This document shows positions 6,907 to 22,905 of a stretch of DNA of 64,000 bases, in pieces. The stretch comes from Desulfopila sp. IMCC35008 (GTDB lineage Bacteria > Desulfobacterota > Desulfobulbia > Desulfobulbales > Desulfocapsaceae), in contig NZ_CP050700.1 in assembly GCF_010646885.2 (NCBI RefSeq), positions 1,371,501 through 1,435,500 on the forward strand. Reading direction: 5' to 3'. Every line of letters starts with the position of its first letter. The stretch's first letter is position 1. The translations under genes were made by a program, and so were the position numbers. The notes under the pieces were generated by a model, which saw only the letters and a program-made list of their open reading frames with translations, made no database searches and was not told the DNA's origin.

Positions 6907-9087
6907 CTATCTGTCTTGCCAGTCATCATCGCCCTGTTTTGTCTGTTGCGGATCCCTGCAAGCCCCAAAAAAATCGTAATATTCAAGTGCCTCAAGAATG
7001 CCTGCGGCATGTGGACGGCTTGAAAAATATACTCGTTCTATATCATCTAGCAGTGACAGCTCTTCATGGTGACGATTAGCAACCACAGCAGCCAGGGTAT
7101 TACCACGCATCATGTCTTCGTCAGCTCCAGACCCACCGGCAACAAAGACGGTTTCCAGGGGAATGCCCAGTTGTTCAACCACATAACGTAATGCCATGCC
7201 TTTTGAGGCTCTCAGCGGAAGAATATCCAGAAATTGTCCAAAAGCAGTCTGGATAAAAAAGGACAACTCCTCTCTGTGCAGCAACTGTTTGATTTCCTCT
7301 ATATCAACGACCTCTGGATCAATATAATAACTGAGCTTAAAACGACTTTGCTTACTATTGGGTTGACTTTTCAAGCCTGGGATATTGACGAGAAGCGACT
7401 TGATTTTTCGTGGTGACCATTGGTAATCGATATGTTTTGTCCAGGCGGTATCTGTTGCAAGCTTTGGGGCGTGATAAATTTCGCCACCGCTACTTGCAAT
7501 AAGTACATCCGGCTCTGGTATTTTGTGCTTTTTCATGAGTTTCAGGGCAGAATCAAGGCGTCTTCCTGTGGCGATAATGAAGTGGCTACTGGTGCGATTT
7601 TTCCTGAGAAGTTCGACTAGCTTTCGAAGCGACTGATCTTTGCCAATCAGGTTTTGGTCGAGATCACTCACTATTGCCCTGTCGCGGTAGAGGCCAGCCC
7701 GCTGTTTCACCGGAATGCGAAGTAGCTGTTCGGAGCGATCCGCAATTGGCTTTACAATGGCAAGGTAGCGCTTGGCATGGGCATCCCAGGAGTAGTTCTT
7801 TTTAACCCCGTAAGCCCCCTGACTTGCATATTTCTGCCATAACTCTCGATCTTCAAGAAGTTTTAACAGTGCTCCTGTAATTGATTCTGGTTCCAACGGG
7901 TCAATGAGAAGTCCATTGTTGCAGTTGGAGATAATATCTTGAGGGCCGCCATCTTCGGTGGCGACAATTGGTAATCCACAAGCAGCGGCTTCAATCTGGG
8001 TCAACCCAAAAGGTTCAGTTAGCGCTGGATTGACAAAAACACCGCCGGAGGCTGCCGCAATTTGGTAAATCATCGGAACCTGATCACGTTGATGGTGCTT
8101 GGGTAGGGCGACCCTTCCATAAAGATCGTACCGGTCAATGGTGATCAGCATTTCATGAAAAACCTCCTGTGCCCCATCTTCCAGGTCATCTATATCATCA
8201 CGGTTGCCAGCAATTATTAAAAGGTTGGCTAATTTCTGCAGATGGGTGGAGAGTCCATAGGCTTCAATAAGGGCGGCGATGTTTTTACGTTTGTCCGGGC
8301 GCGATAGGGCCAGGATAATAGGCTTGTTCGGTGACTTAAGATGTTTGGTCAGTTCTTTGAAAAGTGATGTTGATAATTCTATGCCAGTCGGAAGTGTGAA
8401 CTGATTGAGGTCTGTACCCGGCGGCACAACTCGCATTTGATCTGGCTGATAGTGATCATAAAGCTCATATTGCTCTGTAATTTCCTGATGGGTGGAGGTG
8501 ATAACCCGTTGAGCAGTGGCAAGCGTCTGTTCTTCAGCCTCAATACGCCTACTCATTCTAAAGCGGTTTTCAATTTCCTGCGCCTTTAAACCGCTTGCCA
8601 AGAGTCGGCTCCGCTTGACCCGGCCTAGAGAGTGACCTGTGTGGATGAGCGGTATGCCGAGCAGGCTGGCAAGATATGAACCAACATGGCCTGCATCGGC
8701 GTAGTGGCTATGAATAATGTCTGGGAAGCATTCAGAATCACGAAAAAAATTAACCAAATTGTCTGTGAAAAAATCGAGATGATCCCATAATTCCTCCTTT
8801 GCAAGGTACCCCTCGGGCCCGGCATCAATACGCACAATTTGAAGATTGTTACTAAATATCTCTATTGGCTTCGCGTAGTCATTTGAGACATTGTCACCGA
8901 CCACGCGCTGCGTAATGAGATCAACCTTACTGACGCCATCTTGCTTTGAGAGAGCCTGGGCTAACTCCACGACATAAAGTGTCTGTCCGCCAGTGTCAGC
9001 ATCACGCCCTAGCTCCAGGTTGTGCCAACGGATCAATCCATGTATGCTCAGTAGCGCAATATAAAGTCCATTATTTGGTTTGCTCAC
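6907..9087 (-). CDS. sps: sucrose-phosphate synthase with C-terminal HAD domain
   Basis: The 726-residue protein is a bidomain sucrose-phosphate synthase. The N-terminal GT4 part (about 1-465) starts with LLSIHGLIRWHNLELGRDADTGG-type motifs and has the donor-binding EPFGLTQIEAAACGLP. The C-terminal part (about 475-700) is a HAD-type sucrose-phosphatase-like domain with motif I SDLDQNLIG and motif II FIIATGRR. Motif IV reads GGSGADEDMM instead of the usual GDSGND, so one acidic residue is lost and phosphatase activity may be weak. The protein joins UDP- or ADP-glucose to fructose 6-phosphate in the cytoplasm. It is first in a sucrose unit with amylosucrase and lies 157 bases downstream of a MarR gene on the same strand. 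Confidence 0.92.
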   Translation of the reverse strand: MSKPNNGLYIALLSIHGLIRWHNLELGRDADTGGQTLYVVELAQALSKQDGVSKVDLITQRVVGDNVSNDYAKPIEIFSNNLQIVRIDAGPEGYLAKEELWDHLDFFTDNLVNFFRDSECFPDIIHSHYADAGHVGSYLASLLGIPLIHTGHSLGRVKRSRLLASGLKAQEIENRFRMSRRIEAEEQTLATAQRVITSTHQEITEQYELYDHYQPDQMRVVPPGTDLNQFTLPTGIELSTSLFKELTKHLKSPNKPIILALSRPDKRKNIAALIEAYGLSTHLQKLANLLIIAGNRDDIDDLEDGAQEVFHEMLITIDRYDLYGRVALPKHHQRDQVPMIYQIAAASGGVFVNPALTEPFGLTQIEAAACGLPIVATEDGGPQDIISNCNNGLLIDPLEPESITGALLKLLEDRELWQKYASQGAYGVKKNYSWDAHAKRYLAIVKPIADRSEQLLRIPVKQRAGLYRDRAIVSDLDQNLIGKDQSLRKLVELLRKNRTSSHFIIATGRRLDSALKLMKKHKIPEPDVLIASSGGEIYHAPKLATDTAWTKHIDYQWSPRKIKSLLVNIPGLKSQPNSKQSRFKLSYYIDPEVVDIEEIKQLLHREELSFFIQTAFGQFLDILPLRASKGMALRYVVEQLGIPLETVFVAGGSGADEDMMRGNTLAAVVANRHHEELSLLDDIERVYFSSRPHAAGILEALEYYDFFGACRDPQQTKQGDDDWQDR

Positions 9088-10111: not shown

Positions 10112-10204
10112 TTAGCGCTTCTCGACTGGTGAATGCAACCCAGGGACAGATTGCCGGGAACAAAGGACAGGTCATCAGTTAACAAGAAAAAAAGGAGAAA
10201 TAAA

Positions 10205-11980
10205 ATGTGCGGAATATGCGGTGAGATTCGTTTTGACAACTCACCAGCTTCTCTATCAACAGTTGAGCAAATGACAAAAAATATGGCACAGCGAGGCCCT
10301 GATGCAATGGGTATACTCATGCAGGGGAGGGTCTGCCTGGGGCATCGTCGCTTAAAAATAATTGATCTGAGCGACCAATCGAGGCAACCGCTGAGCGATC
10401 CTTTCCTGGGCCTTGACGTTGTTTTTAACGGTTGCATATACAACTATAAAGAATTGAAACTTGAATTGCAAAACAAGGGGTATCGCTTTTTCTCACAAGG
10501 CGATACGGAGGTTATCCTTAAAGCCTATCATGCTTGGGGAAAGGATTTTGTTAACCGTTTGAACGGCATGTTTGCTGTGGTAATTCATGAGAGAGATTCG
10601 GGGAAGATCATTCTTGCACGCGATCGATTAGGCATCAAACCAATGTATCTCGACGAACGTGGAAAAGTATTACGTTTCGCGTCCTCCCTCCCTGCACTGC
10701 TGAAAAACGAAGGAGTAGACACTAATATTAATCCAGTGGCTTTGCACCACTATCTTCACTGGCATGCGGTTGTCCCGGCACCCCACACAATCCTTAAAGG
10801 AATAAGTAAGTTACCGCCAGCTACCCTGCGGGAATACAAACCAGATGGGAGCTTCAAAGACATACTGTATTGGCAGCTCAACATGAATCACCCAAAGCAC
10901 CCTGAGGTGTTCTCTGAAAAAGAATGGGCCGATCTTTTGCTTGATGAACTAAGGAAAGCAGTCAAGCGGCGCATGGTTGCAGATGTTCCTGTCGGAGTTC
11001 TTCTCTCAGGCGGGGTAGACTCAAGTCTACTTGTCGGGCTCTTATCAGAGGAGGGGCAAGGTGGTTTGAATACCTTTTCTGTGGGTTTTGAAGCAGCTGG
11101 TGGGGAAAAGGGAGACGAGTTTGTATATTCAGACATCATCGCTGATCATTTCAATACAAAACATCATAAAATTTTCGTACCGTCTGACGATCTTTTGCAA
11201 ACCATACCAGGTACAATTTCAGCCATGTCCGAACCGATGGTTAGTTACGATAATGTCGGTTTTTTTCTGCTCTCCCAGGAAGTGGCCAAGCATGTCAAGG
11301 TAGTTCAGAGTGGACAAGGTGCTGATGAAGTCTTCGGCGGGTACCATTGGTATCACCCTATGACTTCGAGCAAAGATCCGCTCCAGGACTACTGCACCGC
11401 ATTTTTCGACCGAGACCAGGAAGAGTATAACCAAGTGGTTCATGATGATTATGTCCAAGAGAATTTCAGTAGAAAATTCATTGAGAACCATTTTCAAAAA
11501 CAAGGTGCAGACAATCCTGTTGATAAAGCACTGCGTCTCGATACAACAATTATGTTGACAGACGATCCAGTCAAACGGGTCGACAATATGACCATGGCAT
11601 GGAGCCTTGAAGCGAGAGTTCCCTTTCTGGATCACGAATTTGTTGAGTTTGCTGGGACCATACCAGCTGAGCTTAAGGTTCGAGGGGAAGGTAAATGGAT
11701 ACTCAAAGAAGCCGCTCGACAGGTAATTCCAGACAGTATCATAGATCGGCCTAAAGGGTATTTCCCAGTACCGGCGTTGAAACACATCGAGGGGCCATAC
11801 CTTGAACTTGTCCGAGAAACTCTCACAAGCAGTGTTGCCAAGCGCCGTAATCTTTTTAAAGAGGACTACATAAATTTATTACTAGATGCCCCGAAAGAGC
11901 ACATAACTCCTTTGCGTGGATCAAAACTCTGGCAAATAGCTCTACTTGAGATGTGGCTGCAAACACAGGGGGTTTTATAA
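10205..11980 (+). CDS. asnO: N-acetylglutaminylglutamine amidotransferase (asparagine-synthase-like)
   Basis: The 591-residue protein has an N-terminal class II glutaminase domain starting MCGICGEI, with Cys2 as the nucleophile, and a C-terminal asparagine-synthase domain with the pyrophosphate loop LSGGVDSSLL. Together with the next two genes it forms the trio known to make the osmolyte N-acetylglutaminylglutamine amide; this enzyme adds the terminal amide using glutamine. The ATG at 10205 is chosen because Cys must follow the initiator Met and AAGGAG lies at 10192-10197; an upstream in-frame start at 10133 would bury the catalytic Cys. The stop overlaps the next start (TAATG), showing translational coupling. 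Confidence 0.93.
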   Translation: MCGICGEIRFDNSPASLSTVEQMTKNMAQRGPDAMGILMQGRVCLGHRRLKIIDLSDQSRQPLSDPFLGLDVVFNGCIYNYKELKLELQNKGYRFFSQGDTEVILKAYHAWGKDFVNRLNGMFAVVIHERDSGKIILARDRLGIKPMYLDERGKVLRFASSLPALLKNEGVDTNINPVALHHYLHWHAVVPAPHTILKGISKLPPATLREYKPDGSFKDILYWQLNMNHPKHPEVFSEKEWADLLLDELRKAVKRRMVADVPVGVLLSGGVDSSLLVGLLSEEGQGGLNTFSVGFEAAGGEKGDEFVYSDIIADHFNTKHHKIFVPSDDLLQTIPGTISAMSEPMVSYDNVGFFLLSQEVAKHVKVVQSGQGADEVFGGYHWYHPMTSSKDPLQDYCTAFFDRDQEEYNQVVHDDYVQENFSRKFIENHFQKQGADNPVDKALRLDTTIMLTDDPVKRVDNMTMAWSLEARVPFLDHEFVEFAGTIPAELKVRGEGKWILKEAARQVIPDSIIDRPKGYFPVPALKHIEGPYLELVRETLTSSVAKRRNLFKEDYINLLLDAPKEHITPLRGSKLWQIALLEMWLQTQGVL

Positions 11981-13746
11981 TGCCTGAAGATAGAAAGGAA
12001 TTACCGAAAGAACGATGCCAAAACCCATATGACCCTCACTGTATGTCATCGCTTAAACACTGGGGGGAGCCACTTCCCCTTAAAGACAAAACAGAAACAA
12101 CAAAAGAAGCAGTTGTTGACTGCGGCTGGGGACGTTTGATCTTTGGACAGACATTCTCAAGCCACAATCGACTGGCAAAGGAAATCTGTAAAGAGAAACC
12201 GGGATATCGGGATATTGCCATGTATATGCGTGAACCGCATGTGGTGATTTCATATGCGCCGCAAGAACTTTTTATGGATCCGTCCCTAACTTATAGACTG
12301 GACTTTCAAGATTATCGAGACAATCGGCTCAGAGTTGAAGGGGTGTCGATTCGTCCTGTACGACCTGATGATAATGAAACAGCAATAAATGCTATTTACC
12401 AGGCTTGGGGAATGGTCCCTAACCACAAGGGTTTTTACACTGAGGCGCAAAAAAAGAGCCCCGTACATGTTCTTGTTGCTGAAGATTTGAACAGAAAATC
12501 TATTGTCGGTGCAGTAACTGGTGTTGATCATGTTAAGGCATTCAATGATCCGGATAATGGTTCCAGCCTGTGGGCTTTAGCCGTCGATAATCAATGCAGA
12601 ATTCCGGGTGTCGGCGAAACACTGGTTCGCGAGCTCATCCTTCACTTTATTGAGCAGGGGCGAAGGTTTCTGGACCTTTCCGTTATGCATACGAATAAGG
12701 AGGCAAAAGCTCTCTACGATAATTTGGGCTTTAAACAGGTTCCGGTGTACTGCATTAAAAACAAAAACTCGATAAACGAGCCACTCTTCACGGGTCCTGA
12801 ACCTCAAGAGCAGGTGAATATATACGCAGGAATACTTATTGAAGAAGCTCGGCGAAGAGGGATTAACGTAGAAATCCTTGATGGAAAAAATGGATATTTC
12901 AAATTGACGTTGGGGGGGCGCTCGATTGTCTGTAGAGAATCTTTAAGTGAGCTGACAACTGCAGTGGCGATGAGTCGCTGCGATGACAAAGCTGTTACTA
13001 TGCGGATTTTACAAAAAGCAAGGTTGAATACCCCTGGCCAGATAGTAGTGACCGAAGCGGCAGACTTTGAGTCGTTTCTGGATTCCCATGGCAGTGTTGT
13101 TGTAAAACCAGCACAAGGTGAACAGGGGCAAGGAGTATTTGTCGATCTTCGCACAAAGGAAGCAGTTGCTGAGGCAATAAACAAAGCGTCTTCTCTTTGT
13201 GAAAAAGTCATTATTGAGGAATATGTCAGGGGTGAGGATCTTCGAATTATAGTTATTGACGATGAGGTCGTTGCAGCGGCAGTGAGACGGCCAGCCACTG
13301 TGTGCGGAACCGGTCAACATACAATTCAGCAGCTTATAGAAAAACAGAGCAGACGTCGAGCAAAAGCGACCCGAGGTGAGAGCACAATTCCTCTTGACGA
13401 GGAAACAGTCCGTTGTGTTGAGGGTGAAGGGTATAGCTTAGATCAAATTTTACCAAAAGACAGAACTCTTCCCGTAAGAAAAACCGCAAATCTCCATACT
13501 GGTGGTACCATCCATGATGTGACTGCTGAGCTAAATACAAAATTAATCAGAGCTGCAATTACGGGAGCCAGAGCTCTTGATATTCCAGTAGTAGGTTTTG
13601 ACTTTCTCGTACCAACTGTTCAAGGAGAAGACTATGTAATTATAGAGGCAAACGAGAGACCGGGCTTGGCAAACCACGAGCCCCAACCTACTGCTGAAAA
13701 ATTCATTAATCTTCTCTTTCCACAAACGCGACAGGTTACGCAATAA
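11980..13746 (+). CDS. ngg: N-acetylglutaminylglutamine synthetase (GNAT plus ATP-grasp)
   Basis: The 588-residue protein joins two domains. Residues from about 115 to 270 form a GNAT acetyltransferase (VSIRPVRPDDNE, then SSLWALAVDNQCRIPGVGE and the ALYDNLGFKQVPVY end). Residues from about 320 to 588 form an ATP-grasp ligase (VVVKPAQGEQGQGVFV, VIIEEYVRGEDLRI, and the metal-binding VIIEANERPGLANHEP end). This architecture is diagnostic of the NAGGN pathway: glutamine is acetylated and ligated to a second glutamine. The start ATG at 11980 overlaps the preceding stop by one base. It is cytoplasmic and the second gene of the operon. Confidence 0.93.
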   Translation: MPEDRKELPKERCQNPYDPHCMSSLKHWGEPLPLKDKTETTKEAVVDCGWGRLIFGQTFSSHNRLAKEICKEKPGYRDIAMYMREPHVVISYAPQELFMDPSLTYRLDFQDYRDNRLRVEGVSIRPVRPDDNETAINAIYQAWGMVPNHKGFYTEAQKKSPVHVLVAEDLNRKSIVGAVTGVDHVKAFNDPDNGSSLWALAVDNQCRIPGVGETLVRELILHFIEQGRRFLDLSVMHTNKEAKALYDNLGFKQVPVYCIKNKNSINEPLFTGPEPQEQVNIYAGILIEEARRRGINVEILDGKNGYFKLTLGGRSIVCRESLSELTTAVAMSRCDDKAVTMRILQKARLNTPGQIVVTEAADFESFLDSHGSVVVKPAQGEQGQGVFVDLRTKEAVAEAINKASSLCEKVIIEEYVRGEDLRIIVIDDEVVAAAVRRPATVCGTGQHTIQQLIEKQSRRRAKATRGESTIPLDEETVRCVEGEGYSLDQILPKDRTLPVRKTANLHTGGTIHDVTAELNTKLIRAAITGARALDIPVVGFDFLVPTVQGEDYVIIEANERPGLANHEPQPTAEKFINLLFPQTRQVTQ

Positions 13747-13749
13747 TTG

Positions 13750-14880
13750 ATGAAAAATCCGGTTAACGAAAAATATTTGCTTGATGTATTGATGCGGCTC
13801 ATGGAGGTTCCGAGCCCGAGTGGAATGACTGACGATATTGTCAGGCTCGTATGCGATGAACTTGACTCTCTCCAAGTTGAGTATGAGCTTACAAGGCGCG
13901 GCGCAATTAGGGCTGCGTTAAAAGGTCAGGCCGTAAAGCCACGAAGAGCTATTGTCAGCCATTTGGACACCCTGGGAGCAATGGTGAAAAGTCTTAAACA
14001 AAATGGGAGACTCAGCATCGTACCAATAGGAAACTGGTCTCCCAGATTTGCTGAAGGAGCACGTGTAACAATCCACTCTGATGGAGATAGGATAATATCC
14101 GGGACGGTCCTTCCTCTTAAAGCGTCAGGTCACACCTATAATACAGAAGTTGATATGCAGCCTTCTTGCTGGGAGAATCTAGAGGTGCGCATTGATGAAC
14201 GGGGCTCATCAATGTGTTCTCTTTGGGAGAGTGGCCTTCGCGTGGGGGATTTTATCTCTTTTAACCACCTATTTGAGGTTAGTAAAAGTGGCTTCATCAA
14301 TTCCCGGTTCCTCGATGACAAAGCTGGTGTAGCCTCGATGCTTGCAGCTGTTCAGGCCATGAGGGAAAATGATATTGTTCCCGCTTTGAACAGCTCACTA
14401 TTATTCACTATATCAGAAGAAGTAGGTATAGGCGCCTCGCATGTATTAAGGGGCAATGTTGCAGAAATGGTTTCAATTGACAATGGCACCATCGCTCCAG
14501 GTCAAAACACATGCGAATTTGGGGCTACTATCGCGATGATGGACTCCACTGGTCCTTTTGACATTCACCTGACCAAACATCTCATTGATATCTGCATAGA
14601 GGAAAATATTGAGTTTAGCCGTGATGTTTTTTTACATTATCGGAGTGATGCAGCTGCTGCCCTGGAAGCCGGTAATGATATCAGAACTGCTCTCATATGT
14701 TTTGGTTTAGATGCCTCACACGGATATGAACGGGTTCACATAGCGTCCCTGACCAGTGTGGCAAATCTCCTGATCAGTTATCTTGCTTCCCCCCCACTCT
14801 TTGCAAGAGGCAGGAATGTGATCGGGCGTGAAAATGAATATCCGTTGATTCGAACCTCACCGGAACTCAATCTCTCCTAG
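13750..14880 (+). CDS. osmoprotectant NAGGN system M42-family peptidase
   Basis: The 376-residue protein is an M42-type metallopeptidase and the third member of the NAGGN trio. Metal ligands are seen in IVSHLDTLG, in SRFLDDKAG, in the glutamate pair FTISEEVG, in SIDNG and in the late HGYERVH. The gene starts 3 bases after the synthetase stop (ATG 13750; an adjoining TTG at 13747 is a less likely start), so the three genes are one operon. Its proposed job in the cluster, trimming or recycling the dipeptide osmolyte, is not proven in the family. Confidence 0.9.
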   Translation: MKNPVNEKYLLDVLMRLMEVPSPSGMTDDIVRLVCDELDSLQVEYELTRRGAIRAALKGQAVKPRRAIVSHLDTLGAMVKSLKQNGRLSIVPIGNWSPRFAEGARVTIHSDGDRIISGTVLPLKASGHTYNTEVDMQPSCWENLEVRIDERGSSMCSLWESGLRVGDFISFNHLFEVSKSGFINSRFLDDKAGVASMLAAVQAMRENDIVPALNSSLLFTISEEVGIGASHVLRGNVAEMVSIDNGTIAPGQNTCEFGATIAMMDSTGPFDIHLTKHLIDICIEENIEFSRDVFLHYRSDAAAALEAGNDIRTALICFGLDASHGYERVHIASLTSVANLLISYLASPPLFARGRNVIGRENEYPLIRTSPELNLS

Positions 14881-15211
14881 GAGTCTACCGGATGAATCCT
14901 TATAGTTAAAGATAATGCAGAATGAGTTGTAAGGTAAATGGTAACCACTTCCAAATGGTTTAATCTCATATAGTGGTAGCATCAGGCACCAGACATAAGG
15001 ATATGAATAACAAGCAAGGTTGTGATCGCCAGATTGAAGATACTATCTTTACCTAGGAATATATCGAAACTATAGCAAATAGCAGGAAATATATTGAATA
15101 TGGCTTATATGTGCGCGAGGTATTTGATGTAAATATGGCAGAAAGGATATAGCAATTATTGTGCCCAGGATTTCTATATAAATAGCATGATATCTGATTT
15201 GAGGTTCACCA
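14881..15211. other. gene-free, AT-rich stretch
   Basis: About 330 bases with no convincing gene. No clear terminator for the NAGGN operon and no strong promoter for the following membrane protein were found. Confidence 0.5.
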
Positions 15212-15613
15212 ATGATCTTAAACTTAAATTTAAACTTAGAAGATATTAGCCAGATATCCATAGGCGCCTTTGCAATTGCAGTTCCTATCTCTTTTTCAGA
15301 AGAGGCATGGAAATTAGGTGAGTCACTTCCTAATGCTAATCTTTTATTTATTTTTATTTTATCAATAATTTTTCTGTCTTTTTTTGCTTATCAAAGCATT
15401 TTTCAAGGAGAAGTAGAAAATAGGATAGCTGTCTTTGTTATACGAATAGTAATTGCGTATTTTATCACAGGCTGCATCGTTGCCCTTGTCTTGTTTTCAA
15501 TTGATAAGTTTCCCATTGGTTCAGAGCCTCTTATCGCATTTAAACGATTGATTGTTATTACAATGCCTGCATCAATGGGAGCCATTGTTGTTGATGGTTT
15601 AGACAAGGAATAG
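15212..15613 (+). CDS. small integral membrane protein, DUF2391-like
   Basis: The 133-residue protein has four hydrophobic segments (about 15-28, 45-60, 74-98 and 110-126) with a conserved-looking ISFSEEAW after the first and KRLIVITMPASMGA in the last. This fits the DUF2391 group of short membrane proteins, whose function is unknown. A weak TGAGG lies upstream of ATG 15212. It sits between the NAGGN operon and the c-di-AMP cyclase gene on the same strand. A role in membrane stress is only suggested by position. Confidence 0.75.
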   Translation: MILNLNLNLEDISQISIGAFAIAVPISFSEEAWKLGESLPNANLLFIFILSIIFLSFFAYQSIFQGEVENRIAVFVIRIVIAYFITGCIVALVLFSIDKFPIGSEPLIAFKRLIVITMPASMGAIVVDGLDKE

Positions 15614-15764: not shown

Positions 15765-16664
15765 TTGTTAGTGGAAACGAAAATAAAAGTATCGGAAAAT
15801 CGAGAGTCGAGACTACTCGTTAACTATTCACTTGACCTGGGGAGAGATCTGGGAATTTCAAAATTTCTTGTTTTTGCAGAATCAATTCAGGATCAAAGGT
15901 ATATTCTGCAGAAAAAAGAGACAGAGAAAATAGTCTTTCTATTGCCCAGAAAGTCAAAAATTAAAGATGAGTTCTATTCAGAATGTTCGGTGATTTATCT
16001 TCCTGACCAGCAATTATCACGATCCGAACAATTCCAGCTTGGACTATTGATAGCAGTCATCAATAATTTAGTGGAACATGACGAAACTGTACTCTGCCTT
16101 ACCGGCTTAGTTGGTTCGCTCAGGCTAGACAACCTTTTGATCACAAACCTGCAGCGAGATAATAAATGGTTTCAAAATCATGCGTACGAGACAGTGCCGG
16201 TTGATATCCTGCGTTCTCGTGAGTTTGTCCGTCTACTTGATATTTCCCTTAAGCTGGCAAAACAGGGCAGGGAGGGAAAGAAAATAGGCACGATCTTCGT
16301 GCTTGGGGATCAGAAGTCTTTTGAAAAATATATGAAGCCGATGATTCTTAATCCTTTCTACGGGCATCCACTTAAAAAACGTAATATCCATAATAGCGAT
16401 CTTTTTGAAACCATACGGGAGTTTGCAACCCTGGATGGCGCATTTGTCGTCGACAACAAAGGTGCGATCCAAAACGCTGGCGTTTACCTCAGTCCACCAA
16501 ATAATAAACAGGTTAAACTATTAAAAGGATATGGTGCTCGGCATACTGTAGCAGCCCTCTTCAGTGCTGCTACCGACAGCCTCACGATTACGATTTCCGA
16601 GTCATCGTCTCAGGTTACAGTTTTCTTTAAAGGTGGTGCAATACTTCAGTTTAATCAGGATTAG
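15765..16664 (+). CDS. diadenylate cyclase (DAC/DisA_N domain), c-di-AMP synthase
   Basis: The 299-residue protein has a C-terminal DAC domain with both active-site motifs: DGA at residues 224-226 (LDGAFVVDNKG) and the GARHT motif at 257-261 (GYGARHTVAA), followed by the strand-rich TDSLTITISESS. The N-terminal 160 residues form an alpha/beta domain that resembles the pyruvate-kinase-C-like module of DacZ-type cyclases. There are no membrane helices, so it is soluble. It condenses two ATP into c-di-AMP, which in other bacteria controls potassium uptake and osmolyte transport. The start is uncertain: TTG at 15765 or GTG at 15771. The next gene is a cation/proton antiporter, a frequent c-di-AMP target. 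Confidence 0.88.
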   Translation: MLVETKIKVSENRESRLLVNYSLDLGRDLGISKFLVFAESIQDQRYILQKKETEKIVFLLPRKSKIKDEFYSECSVIYLPDQQLSRSEQFQLGLLIAVINNLVEHDETVLCLTGLVGSLRLDNLLITNLQRDNKWFQNHAYETVPVDILRSREFVRLLDISLKLAKQGREGKKIGTIFVLGDQKSFEKYMKPMILNPFYGHPLKKRNIHNSDLFETIREFATLDGAFVVDNKGAIQNAGVYLSPPNNKQVKLLKGYGARHTVAALFSAATDSLTITISESSSQVTVFFKGGAILQFNQD

Positions 16665-16821
16665 CCTTAGAAACCCTTACTGTCTCCACCACATACCGAA
16701 AAGCACCCTTACCGTCGAGCTACAGGGTGCTCAACAGGTGGAACTCAGGTCGGATGATTGTACCGGTTATAATGGTCAGGTCATTAAATAGAACTCCAAA
16801 TTCATTTCTAAAGAGTTAATT

Positions 16822-18072
16822 ATGGACCTCATTTATATACTGCTTGTGTTATTGGTTGCGACAAGATTATGCGGAGAATTTGCTGAACGAATGAAATTTC
16901 CTGCGTTAGTGGGAGAATTGGTGGCTGGCATTACCCTTGGGGTGATATTTCATCACTACTCAAGCACATTTCCTGTATTATCCAATCTTCCAGAAAATGA
17001 AGTTTTCAAAGGGCTTACCGATCTAGCAATTTTTTTTCTGATGCTTCTTGCGGGAGTAGAACTGCGCCCTAAAGATATTGTCAAGGCGTCGGGTCCGGCC
17101 TTTGCAATAGCGGTTGGTGGAATGATAGTACCACTTATGGCAGGCATGGGCTTAGGAATAGTGTTTTTGCCGGAGTCATCGTTAAAGATGGCACAGGCTC
17201 TTTTTCTGGGCACTGCTCTTGCTATCACCGCTGTGCCAGTCTCCGTAAAAATTTTGATGGATTTAAAACTTCTTGATACAAAAATTGGAAAGACAATTGT
17301 TTCTGCAGCCTTATTTGATGATATTCTCAGCCTGGTGTTACTGGCTGTGTTGACGGCAATACTTGCCAACGGTGAGATTCCAGGAGTGGATAGGCTACTC
17401 CTGCTTGTTGGTAAGGTTATACTGTTTTTTATAACAACCTCAGTTCTCGGGCTTTATGTTCTTCCTGCTCTGCATAAATTAGCAGCCAGGTTTAAATCAG
17501 ATGAATTCGAGTTCAGCGCACTGCTGATGGTTTCCTTTTTATTCGCCTTGCTGGCTGAAGAGCTTGGCATGCATTTTATCCTCGGTGCATTTTTAGCCGG
17601 TCTGTTTTTTGTAAAGAGGATAATGTCAGATGAGGTGTACGATACTATCAAGGCGAGTCTAACCAGTTGGACTATGGGATTTTTTGCACCCATCTTTTTT
17701 GCCTCTATCGGTCTGCATCTTGATCTGGCAGCAATTAGTGAGATCCCCCTGTTTTTATCCATGTTATTGCTAGCGGCTTTTCTGGGAAAGCTTGTTGGTG
17801 CTGGCCTGCCGGCGCTGGCCGTAGGTTTCACTCCGGCAGAGTCAATAGGCATTGGTTCTGCCATGAGTGCTCGTGGTGCTGTAGAATTGATTATTGCAAC
17901 CATCGCATTAGAGGCCGGCTTATTTAATCACCCCGATCCAGCACCGCCGGAAGTTTCATTTCTCTTTTCAGCGATAGTTATAATGGCACTTGTAACGACT
18001 CTCGTTACCCCTGTATTAATGAGGTTTAGCATTGGCAACCCAGGGCACAACCGGGCTCAACATATAGATTGA
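16822..18072 (+). CDS. CPA2-family Na+(K+)/H+ antiporter
   Basis: The 416-residue protein has about twelve membrane segments and belongs to the CPA2 exchangers (KefB/NapA-like). The ion-binding acidic pair typical of electrogenic members is visible in SAALFDDILSLVL. Other family marks are GELVAGITLG near the N-terminus, GTALAITAVPVSVKIL, and SIGIGSAMSARGAVELI near the C-terminus. There is no RCK/TrkA-N domain, so control by another protein or by c-di-AMP would be separate. It follows the diadenylate cyclase by 157 bases on the same strand. A role in moving Na+ or K+ out during osmotic or pH stress fits the surroundings. Confidence 0.9.
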   Translation: MDLIYILLVLLVATRLCGEFAERMKFPALVGELVAGITLGVIFHHYSSTFPVLSNLPENEVFKGLTDLAIFFLMLLAGVELRPKDIVKASGPAFAIAVGGMIVPLMAGMGLGIVFLPESSLKMAQALFLGTALAITAVPVSVKILMDLKLLDTKIGKTIVSAALFDDILSLVLLAVLTAILANGEIPGVDRLLLLVGKVILFFITTSVLGLYVLPALHKLAARFKSDEFEFSALLMVSFLFALLAEELGMHFILGAFLAGLFFVKRIMSDEVYDTIKASLTSWTMGFFAPIFFASIGLHLDLAAISEIPLFLSMLLLAAFLGKLVGAGLPALAVGFTPAESIGIGSAMSARGAVELIIATIALEAGLFNHPDPAPPEVSFLFSAIVIMALVTTLVTPVLMRFSIGNPGHNRAQHID

Positions 18073-21357: not shown

Positions 21358-22905
21358 TCATCTTTTAATGATTTGTCGAATATATTTTTTTATCTCGCGC
21401 AGGCTTGATTGAGGTGGTTCCGCACTGTTCTGTATGCGGAGGTATTCTGCTTCATCTTGCCGTTGCTTAACCTCGACAGCTATGCGATCGGCAACTTCCG
21501 GGTACTTCTGCATTATTTCTTTCATGATACCGAAGTCGATACGTATAAGGGTAACATCAGTCTCCGCAATCCAGTGGGTCGGAATTGGCTGATCTGTGAA
21601 CATAGATACCAGACCGTAACTGTCCCCTGGACCCAATTCACCTATCACTACTTTTTTGCCGTTTGCCAGTTTGGTGGAGACTTCAACAACACCACTTATA
21701 AGAACATCTAAGGCATCGATCTCGCCATCCTCATATTGTATAACCGATTTAGTATCATAGTGTTTTTGCTGGCTCAACATTGCTAATTGCTCTATTTCCT
21801 CATCTGCAAGGTGAGAGAAAATCGGCTGACTTTTTAGAGCTAGCTGGATAGTTGGAGGCTCAGCAACCGGAATGACAGATTTTCTGATCCTCCATTCGCT
21901 GGTAACTGCTGCGGGAGAAATTCCTGCCTGTTGGAGGACATAATGAATTTCCCTGTACAGTTCTTCTCGTCCCCGGAACATAGCCGGGTAGTTAGGAAAC
22001 GCCACCCAACAGATGTAGGTATAAGGAACAGTTGAAGCGTCCGTGAGTCGCACGACGGGAGTCGGATGCTTTAACACATGTTTACAGCGATAAATCCCTT
22101 CGAGGAGAAGTTGTTTGGCAAATCGGGGGTCAAGCTCCGCAGGTAATTTGATAATATACCAAGGTTGGTAATGTTGAAATTCGTTCCCACAGTTGGTAAA
22201 CCCTTGTTTGGCAAGTTTTGAATTTGGAATGATGTGCCTGGTGTTATCCCAATCCTGAAGCCAGGTGGCTCTCCAGTTAATATCAATAACAGTCCCTTCT
22301 GTACCATCATCTTTTAGTTGAATCCAGTCTCCTATATGAAAGGCCCCCTCAACTCCCAATGCAATTCCGGAGAATAAATCCCCTAAGGTCTGTTGAAGAG
22401 CAATTCCCACTAAGGCTGTAGCCAAACCTGTAGAAATCCAAACACCGGTGAATGAGTACCCCTGTTGCCAAAAGAAGGCCCCTAGAGCAAGAAAGATCGA
22501 AGTACCGTAGATGACGCCGCGCAGCAATCCTGAGACTGTACTCGTTGTTTCTTCTGGGCTGCTCATATATTTCTTTAAAGCAAAAGCATAGATAACATTG
22601 GCGAGTTGTACGCCGATAACCAGGAAAAAGATAAAAGTAAAACATGTAAACGGCCATATATCACGATCTATCCAATAGTTCGTCGTCAATAAATGAAAGA
22701 AAATCGTATGGAATATGATAAAAACCAGAAGTATGCAGATTGATTTGGTGATAACGAAAAGGAGAGGAAGTGACTGTTTAATGGGATGCAGGTGTGAAAC
22801 TTGGTTAATTAGAACACAACCTAATGTTAGGGAAATAATGAAAATTGTGGTAGTTGGAAAAGATTCGTAAAAATGTAGAAGAATTAATACGGTGTTTTCA
22901 AGCAT
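21358..22905 (-). CDS. MscS-family mechanosensitive channel with C-terminal cNMP-binding-like domain
   Basis: The 515-residue protein has four to five N-terminal membrane helices (about 10-160), an MscS pore and vestibule region (WISTGLATALVGIALQQTLGDLFSGIALG, then the beta-domain FHIGDWIQL and WRATWLQDWDN), and a C-terminal domain from about 370 with the cyclic-nucleotide-binding fold (IFSHLADEEIEQLAML, IGELGPGDSYGLVSMF). The usual phosphate-binding GE and PRxA residues of that fold are replaced (YGLVSMF, IPTHWIAE), so cyclic nucleotide binding is doubtful. Such bCNG-type channels open under membrane tension or are gated by ligand. It closes the osmotic-stress gene group. Start ATG at 22905. 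Confidence 0.9.
   Translation of the reverse strand: MLENTVLILLHFYESFPTTTIFIISLTLGCVLINQVSHLHPIKQSLPLLFVITKSICILLVFIIFHTIFFHLLTTNYWIDRDIWPFTCFTFIFFLVIGVQLANVIYAFALKKYMSSPEETTSTVSGLLRGVIYGTSIFLALGAFFWQQGYSFTGVWISTGLATALVGIALQQTLGDLFSGIALGVEGAFHIGDWIQLKDDGTEGTVIDINWRATWLQDWDNTRHIIPNSKLAKQGFTNCGNEFQHYQPWYIIKLPAELDPRFAKQLLLEGIYRCKHVLKHPTPVVRLTDASTVPYTYICWVAFPNYPAMFRGREELYREIHYVLQQAGISPAAVTSEWRIRKSVIPVAEPPTIQLALKSQPIFSHLADEEIEQLAMLSQQKHYDTKSVIQYEDGEIDALDVLISGVVEVSTKLANGKKVVIGELGPGDSYGLVSMFTDQPIPTHWIAETDVTLIRIDFGIMKEIMQKYPEVADRIAVEVKQRQDEAEYLRIQNSAEPPQSSLREIKKYIRQIIKR

Follow-up and report, generated by a model that had tools for sequence, protein, structure and literature searches.

DacZ is a type of diadenylate cyclase (DAC) known best from archaea. 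What does such a cyclase do in a Gram-negative bacterium where its gene lies beside that of a cation/proton antiporter, and do the two genes act together? We addressed this question in a window of 64,000 nucleotides, covering positions 1,371,501-1,435,500 of a 6.3-Mb single-contig genome. A preliminary description of the window, based on its letters alone, had placed the DNA in a Gram-negative member of the Desulfobacterota. This assignment was correct: the host, a bacterium of marine sediment, belongs to the same genus as Desulfosediminicola flagellatus (Desulfocapsaceae, Thermodesulfobacteriota). D. flagellatus was also the only match when genome contigs were scanned with a profile from our first DacZ alignment.

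The cyclase gene lies on the forward strand at 15771-16664 and encodes 297 amino acids from a GTG codon. The open reading frame extends to a TTG at 15765, from which it would encode 299 amino acids. No clear ribosome-binding site precedes either candidate, and the GTG is the more likely start, as it agrees better than the TTG with where two close homologues, at 65% and 62% identity, begin. Pfam identifies an N-terminal, sensor-like DacZ_P domain, of predicted pyruvate kinase C-terminal (PK_C) fold (residues 33-136, 15861-16172; 33.3 bits, cut-off 27.4) and a C-terminal catalytic DAC domain (PF02457; residues 165-290, 16257-16634; 68.2 bits, cut-off 27). The preliminary description had reported a DacZ-like cyclase with both catalytic motifs intact, and we confirmed, in its numbering, DGA at residues 224-226 (16434-16442) and GARHT at residues 257-261 (16533-16547). 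The SE pair typical of the DAC family is also present, at residues 278-279. An alignment of 46 family members shows no variation at the D, G, A, R and H of these motifs or at the SE serine. With PF02457 above its cut-off and the DGA and RHx motifs in place, the protein qualifies as a DAC, and a profile of the whole family recovered the catalytic domains of CdaA and DisA from the PDB. Selection was judged from codon-position differences between close homologues. Relative to its nearest homologue, the window gene differs by 0.30/0.16/0.61 across the three positions, mostly at third positions, and dacZ therefore appears to be under purifying selection. The fold, motifs, selection and copy number of DacZ can all be read at the level of sequence.

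The N-terminal domain had been described as pyruvate-kinase-C-like, and our comparisons bear this out. The window protein by itself matches only DacZ_P in this region, but 24 of 36 DacZ family members match PK_C (best E 1.2e-5). When a profile of the N-domain was compared with solved structures, pyruvate kinase C-domains were the top matches, weakly, with an E-value of 0.016. An AlphaFold model from two sequences had a mean pLDDT of 42 and was usable only for residues about 13-110; in a Foldseek search with this low-confidence model, pyruvate kinases were again at the top (E 4e-6). From the family matches, the structure profile and the Foldseek result, a PK_C-like fold is a well-supported prediction.

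By sequence, window DacZ is a divergent new member of the already known DacZ/CdaZ class. It carries the PK_C-like domain ahead of the DAC domain and contains no CdaA-type membrane domain, YbbR domain or further domain, DacZ_P and DAC filling its 297 amino acids. It does not pass the haloarchaeal DacZ equivalog NF041371, its 96.7 bits falling far short of the required 430. Bacterial proteins that fall within the DacZ/CdaZ branch and share the PK_C fold were noted as early as 2019 (PMC6741144). DacZ from Haloferax volcanii (HVO_1660) makes c-di-AMP in vitro and affects behavior in low salt (PMC6741144). It resembles the window protein in having a PK_C-like N-domain and a DAC domain, in being soluble and in its DGA motif (PMC6741144), but the two are remote in sequence, as the haloarchaeal score indicates. 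H. volcanii DacZ is essential and the only DAC of its host, whereas window DacZ is one of four, and the H. volcanii gene forms an operon with mscS2 (PMC6741144). CdaZ/DacY from Methanocaldococcus jannaschii, as cited in PMC6741144, likewise combines a PK_C N-domain with DAC and is reported to be active in a heterologous host; this protein is archaeal, and its likeness to window DacZ is drawn from that paper. Other DacZ proteins from Desulfobacterota share the domain order, length and invariant motifs of the window protein, but are about 25-35% identical to it, and their genes often adjoin clpB, hppA or other genes. At the position where the main Desulfobacterota group carries an LTRxGQIK motif, the window clade reads LSRSEQFQLG. 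The two CdaA proteins of the window genome share the catalytic domain and its motifs, but have a membrane N-domain and a YbbR partner or fusion in place of the PK_C-like domain. PMC6741144 also names relatives of DacZ from myxobacteria and planctomycetes.

We surveyed the DAC proteins of the host and its relatives. The host encodes four: a CdaA followed by a YbbR protein, a CdaA-YbbR fusion, DacZ, and a DACND-DACNH-DAC protein (L004:1393-3333). Three have intact motifs. The DACND-DACNH-DAC protein has RYN instead of RHx and, judged by this change, may be inactive. Most relatives of the family have proteins matching this RYN-type protein in length and score, and the type may represent inactive DACs that serve as sensors. 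At least one DAC is present in each of the 58 relatives searched. DacZ_P was found in 3 of these 58 (the window genome counted); across the phylum, 60 of 395 genomes have it. The capacity to synthesize c-di-AMP is the rule in sulfate-reducing Desulfobacterota, archaeal-type DacZ included. The preliminary description regarded c-di-AMP as little studied in Desulfobacterota, which is fair: in the literature searched, Desulfobacter is nowhere linked with c-di-AMP and diadenylate cyclase. Its presence as such is unsurprising, because bacterial DacZ homologues and Deltaproteobacterial DACs have been published, with Deltaproteobacteria listed among c-di-AMP makers (PMC5575661), and because DACs occur throughout the relatives. 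In a tree of 46 proteins, window DacZ groups with those of D. flagellatus (G003) and a second genome, G025 (support 99/99), and this clade is set apart from the main Desulfobacterota group by a long branch (about 3 changes per column). The same family contains two more DacZ-like lineages, one from G016 and one joining G020 with G036. The existence of several lineages within one family suggests that DacZ was probably gained or remodelled there repeatedly.

We consider it likely that the window gene encodes a soluble DacZ/CdaZ-class cyclase with a complete active site, which serves as an extra c-di-AMP synthase, carries a metabolite-sensing PK_C-like domain and possibly contributes to salt adaptation. 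The two Pfam domains above cut-off, the motifs invariant across 46 members, the PK_C fold, the purifying selection and the bench-proven H. volcanii relative all argue for a cyclase. The other DACs of the genome and the osmolyte genes upstream of dacZ, described below, likewise speak for this explanation. We infer its activity, dimerisation and sensing as follows. Two DAC domains, each from a different subunit, would face each other and convert two ATP molecules into c-di-AMP, and the PK_C-like N-domain would likely be an allosteric sensor of a small molecule. As the third complete cyclase besides two membrane-bound CdaA types, DacZ would most likely supply c-di-AMP under a separate condition. 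The divergence of its clade, evident in the branch length and the haloarchaeal score, counts against this explanation, as does the composition of the remaining c-di-AMP system. In the host genome we found no PstA-type receptor, no TrkA_C protein bearing the published RCK_C signature for c-di-AMP, and no c-di-AMP riboswitch, which 4 of 34 relatives do have. Among c-di-AMP phosphodiesterases, PgpH was not found in the host genome; in favor of the explanation, two candidates for c-di-AMP degradation are present, one NrnA-like and the other a DHH protein (L088:1381-2406). With PgpH and the textbook receptors we tested absent, the role of c-di-AMP and the ligand of the PK_C-like domain become testable questions. 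At L008:8864-11332 in G025, dacZ is divergent from a gene for a DHH-family phosphoesterase related to L088:1381-2406, which is a possible c-di-AMP degrading partner.

Our first guess for the function of dacZ, and it is no more than a guess, is osmotic adaptation, in view of the surrounding osmolyte genes and of what c-di-AMP generally does. Salt-related genes span about 18 kb around dacZ. Upstream, on the forward strand, lies an N-acetylglutaminylglutamine amide trio encoding an amidotransferase, a synthetase and an M42 peptidase (10133-14880; TIGR03104, TIGR03103 and TIGR03106 above cut-off). Past the trio, the opposite strand carries genes for a MarR regulator, sucrose-phosphate synthase and a GH13 enzyme, the sucrose-phosphate synthase/phosphatase (6907-9087, reverse strand; TIGR02472 and TIGR02471 above cut-off) providing a second osmolyte route. 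Downstream of the antiporter, one gene encodes an ABC1/UbiB kinase-like protein and another, at 21358-22905 on the reverse strand, an MscS-type channel with a fused cyclic-nucleotide-binding (cNMP) domain. A stronger version of the osmotic reading holds that DacZ belongs functionally to an osmolyte island comprising sucrose-phosphate synthase, the trio, the antiporter and the MscS-cNMP channel, and forms with them a single module that links c-di-AMP to the synthesis of compatible solutes. This version can draw on the extent of the salt-related stretch and on the mscS2 operon of H. volcanii, but we think it unlikely. The MscS gene is 4.7 kb from dacZ and on the opposite strand. The trio occurs without dacZ in two other genomes, being followed by PRC-barrel, GGDEF and DUF2391 genes in G019 and standing alone in G008. 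No protein of the genus mates G001-G003 scores above the TIGR03106 cut-off, so that G003, the other clade member covered by this search, lacks the M42 gene of the trio. The linkage between dacZ and the trio is thus not old. Because dacZ is away from osmolyte genes, the trio included, in both other clade members (G003 and G025), the osmotic setting may be accidental. Osmolyte synthesis is still a better local context for dacZ than the antiporter, though the linkage is specific to this genome.

The DNA between the trio and dacZ holds a gene for a short DUF2391 membrane protein (15212-15613, forward strand), 85% identical to the copy downstream of the trio in G019. Ahead of it, at 15030-15188, is the remnant of a decayed GGDEF (diguanylate cyclase) gene, seen as collinear blastn pieces against the intact G019 gene (L102:4085-4939); any match at that level arose in 1 of 200 shuffles. 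The collinear pieces ahead of DUF2391 indicate that this spot was rearranged. A c-di-GMP cyclase gene decayed beside the present site of a c-di-AMP cyclase gene.

Elsewhere in the Desulfobacterota, dacZ has different neighbors. At 12 other loci it directly precedes clpB, in the same orientation (L044:3673-9456; L045, L050, L054, L055, L057, L059, L061, L066, L067, L068 and L074); most of these gene pairs are about 10-20 bp apart. At 10 of the 12, a gene for an RpoH-like sigma factor lies upstream in divergent orientation. The adjacency to clpB suggests that c-di-AMP is tied to heat shock in these Desulfobacterota; in the literature searched, rpoH, clpB and diadenylate cyclase are nowhere linked. 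At seven other loci (L048:6873-8948; L053, L069, L071, L078, L079 and L081), the gene for a sodium-translocating pyrophosphatase converges on dacZ, and most of these loci have ychF on the opposite flank of dacZ, in divergent orientation. The identities of ClpB, RpoH, the pyrophosphatase and YchF were checked with one member each. Desulfobacterota DacZ could be a metabolite-gated stress cyclase whose partner stress module varies: proteostasis (rpoH-dacZ-clpB) in one clade, the pyrophosphatase in another and osmolyte synthesis in the window genome. We regard this idea as a long shot. If true, c-di-AMP would be a general stress signal of the phylum, beyond its known role in potassium.

The antiporter gene lies at 16822-18072 on the forward strand and encodes 416 amino acids. 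Pfam assigns the protein to Na_H_Exchanger (PF00999, 180.6 bits) and confirms the earlier observation that it has no RCK domain. The CPA2 label it had been given stands at the superfamily level and fails for the subfamily, the TIGR00932 score of 153.7 bits being below the cut-off of 238.3. Its nearest solved relative is NapA (114 bits; KefC 50 bits). Similarity to NapA from Thermus thermophilus extends over the whole length, and an FDD at residues 165-167 aligns with the NapA DD, placing the DD motif at residues 166-167. NapA is only a distant relative, however, and the ion specificity of the window antiporter is a sequence-based prediction. The gap between dacZ and the antiporter gene measures 157 bp (16665-16821) and contains an 8-bp stem-loop at 16702-16731. 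We considered the stem-loop as a standard terminator or a repeat and dropped both ideas: its fold is not above that of shuffled sequence (z -0.7), it has no T-run, and it occurs once within the window. An Rfam search of the window gave no matches, and PADLOC defence models matched neither DacZ nor the antiporter.

The preliminary description had suggested, from this neighbor, direct or indirect control of cation efflux. Antiporters controlled by c-di-AMP are known: KhtTU, CpeAB and CpaA respond through RCK_C domains of their own or of a partner (PMC10117811, PMC5575661). The window antiporter shares a CPA-type membrane domain with them, but lacks the RCK_C to which c-di-AMP binds. We found no RCK_C in the protein or an adjoining gene and no TrkA_C in the antiporter; the nearest TrkA_C in the host genome is 193 kb from dacZ. 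An antiporter homologue within about 6 kb was absent at the 45 other DacZ loci, a few of which are cut by contig ends. Besides the gene itself, no close homologue was found in 34 relatives and 297 phylum genomes at E<=1e-60, a strict threshold at which distant CPA2 paralogues would be missed. A working pair in which c-di-AMP, directly or via another protein, controls Na+ or K+ efflux is therefore highly improbable, although the genes are adjacent on the same strand. The antiporter also has no cytosolic tail, and its DD pair is that of electrogenic Na+/H+ exchangers rather than K+ exporters. The suggested control of efflux is not supported, the pair being specific to this genome. Given the 157-bp gap, the missing close homologues and the 45 loci without an antiporter, the pairing appears accidental and by itself adds little; the antiporter most probably lies there by chance, or is at most co-regulated, rather than being a direct c-di-AMP target. 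A more plausible cyclase-transporter link in this genome is found at L011:5369-12642, where the gene for the CdaA-YbbR fusion is divergent from that of a DASS-type transporter with RCK_C; genes for a CBS-domain MgtE and for NhaA come next.

It is likewise very unlikely that DacZ has lost cyclase activity and acts instead as a c-di-AMP or metabolite sensor: its clade is divergent, and the RYN protein indicates that such loss occurs in this genome, but the three clade members all retain every catalytic position, and dacZ is under purifying selection. Near dacZ in D. flagellatus (L009:1079-2602), we observed a long tandem repeat array (LQTSYYYFVLQTYK...) that is open in several frames.
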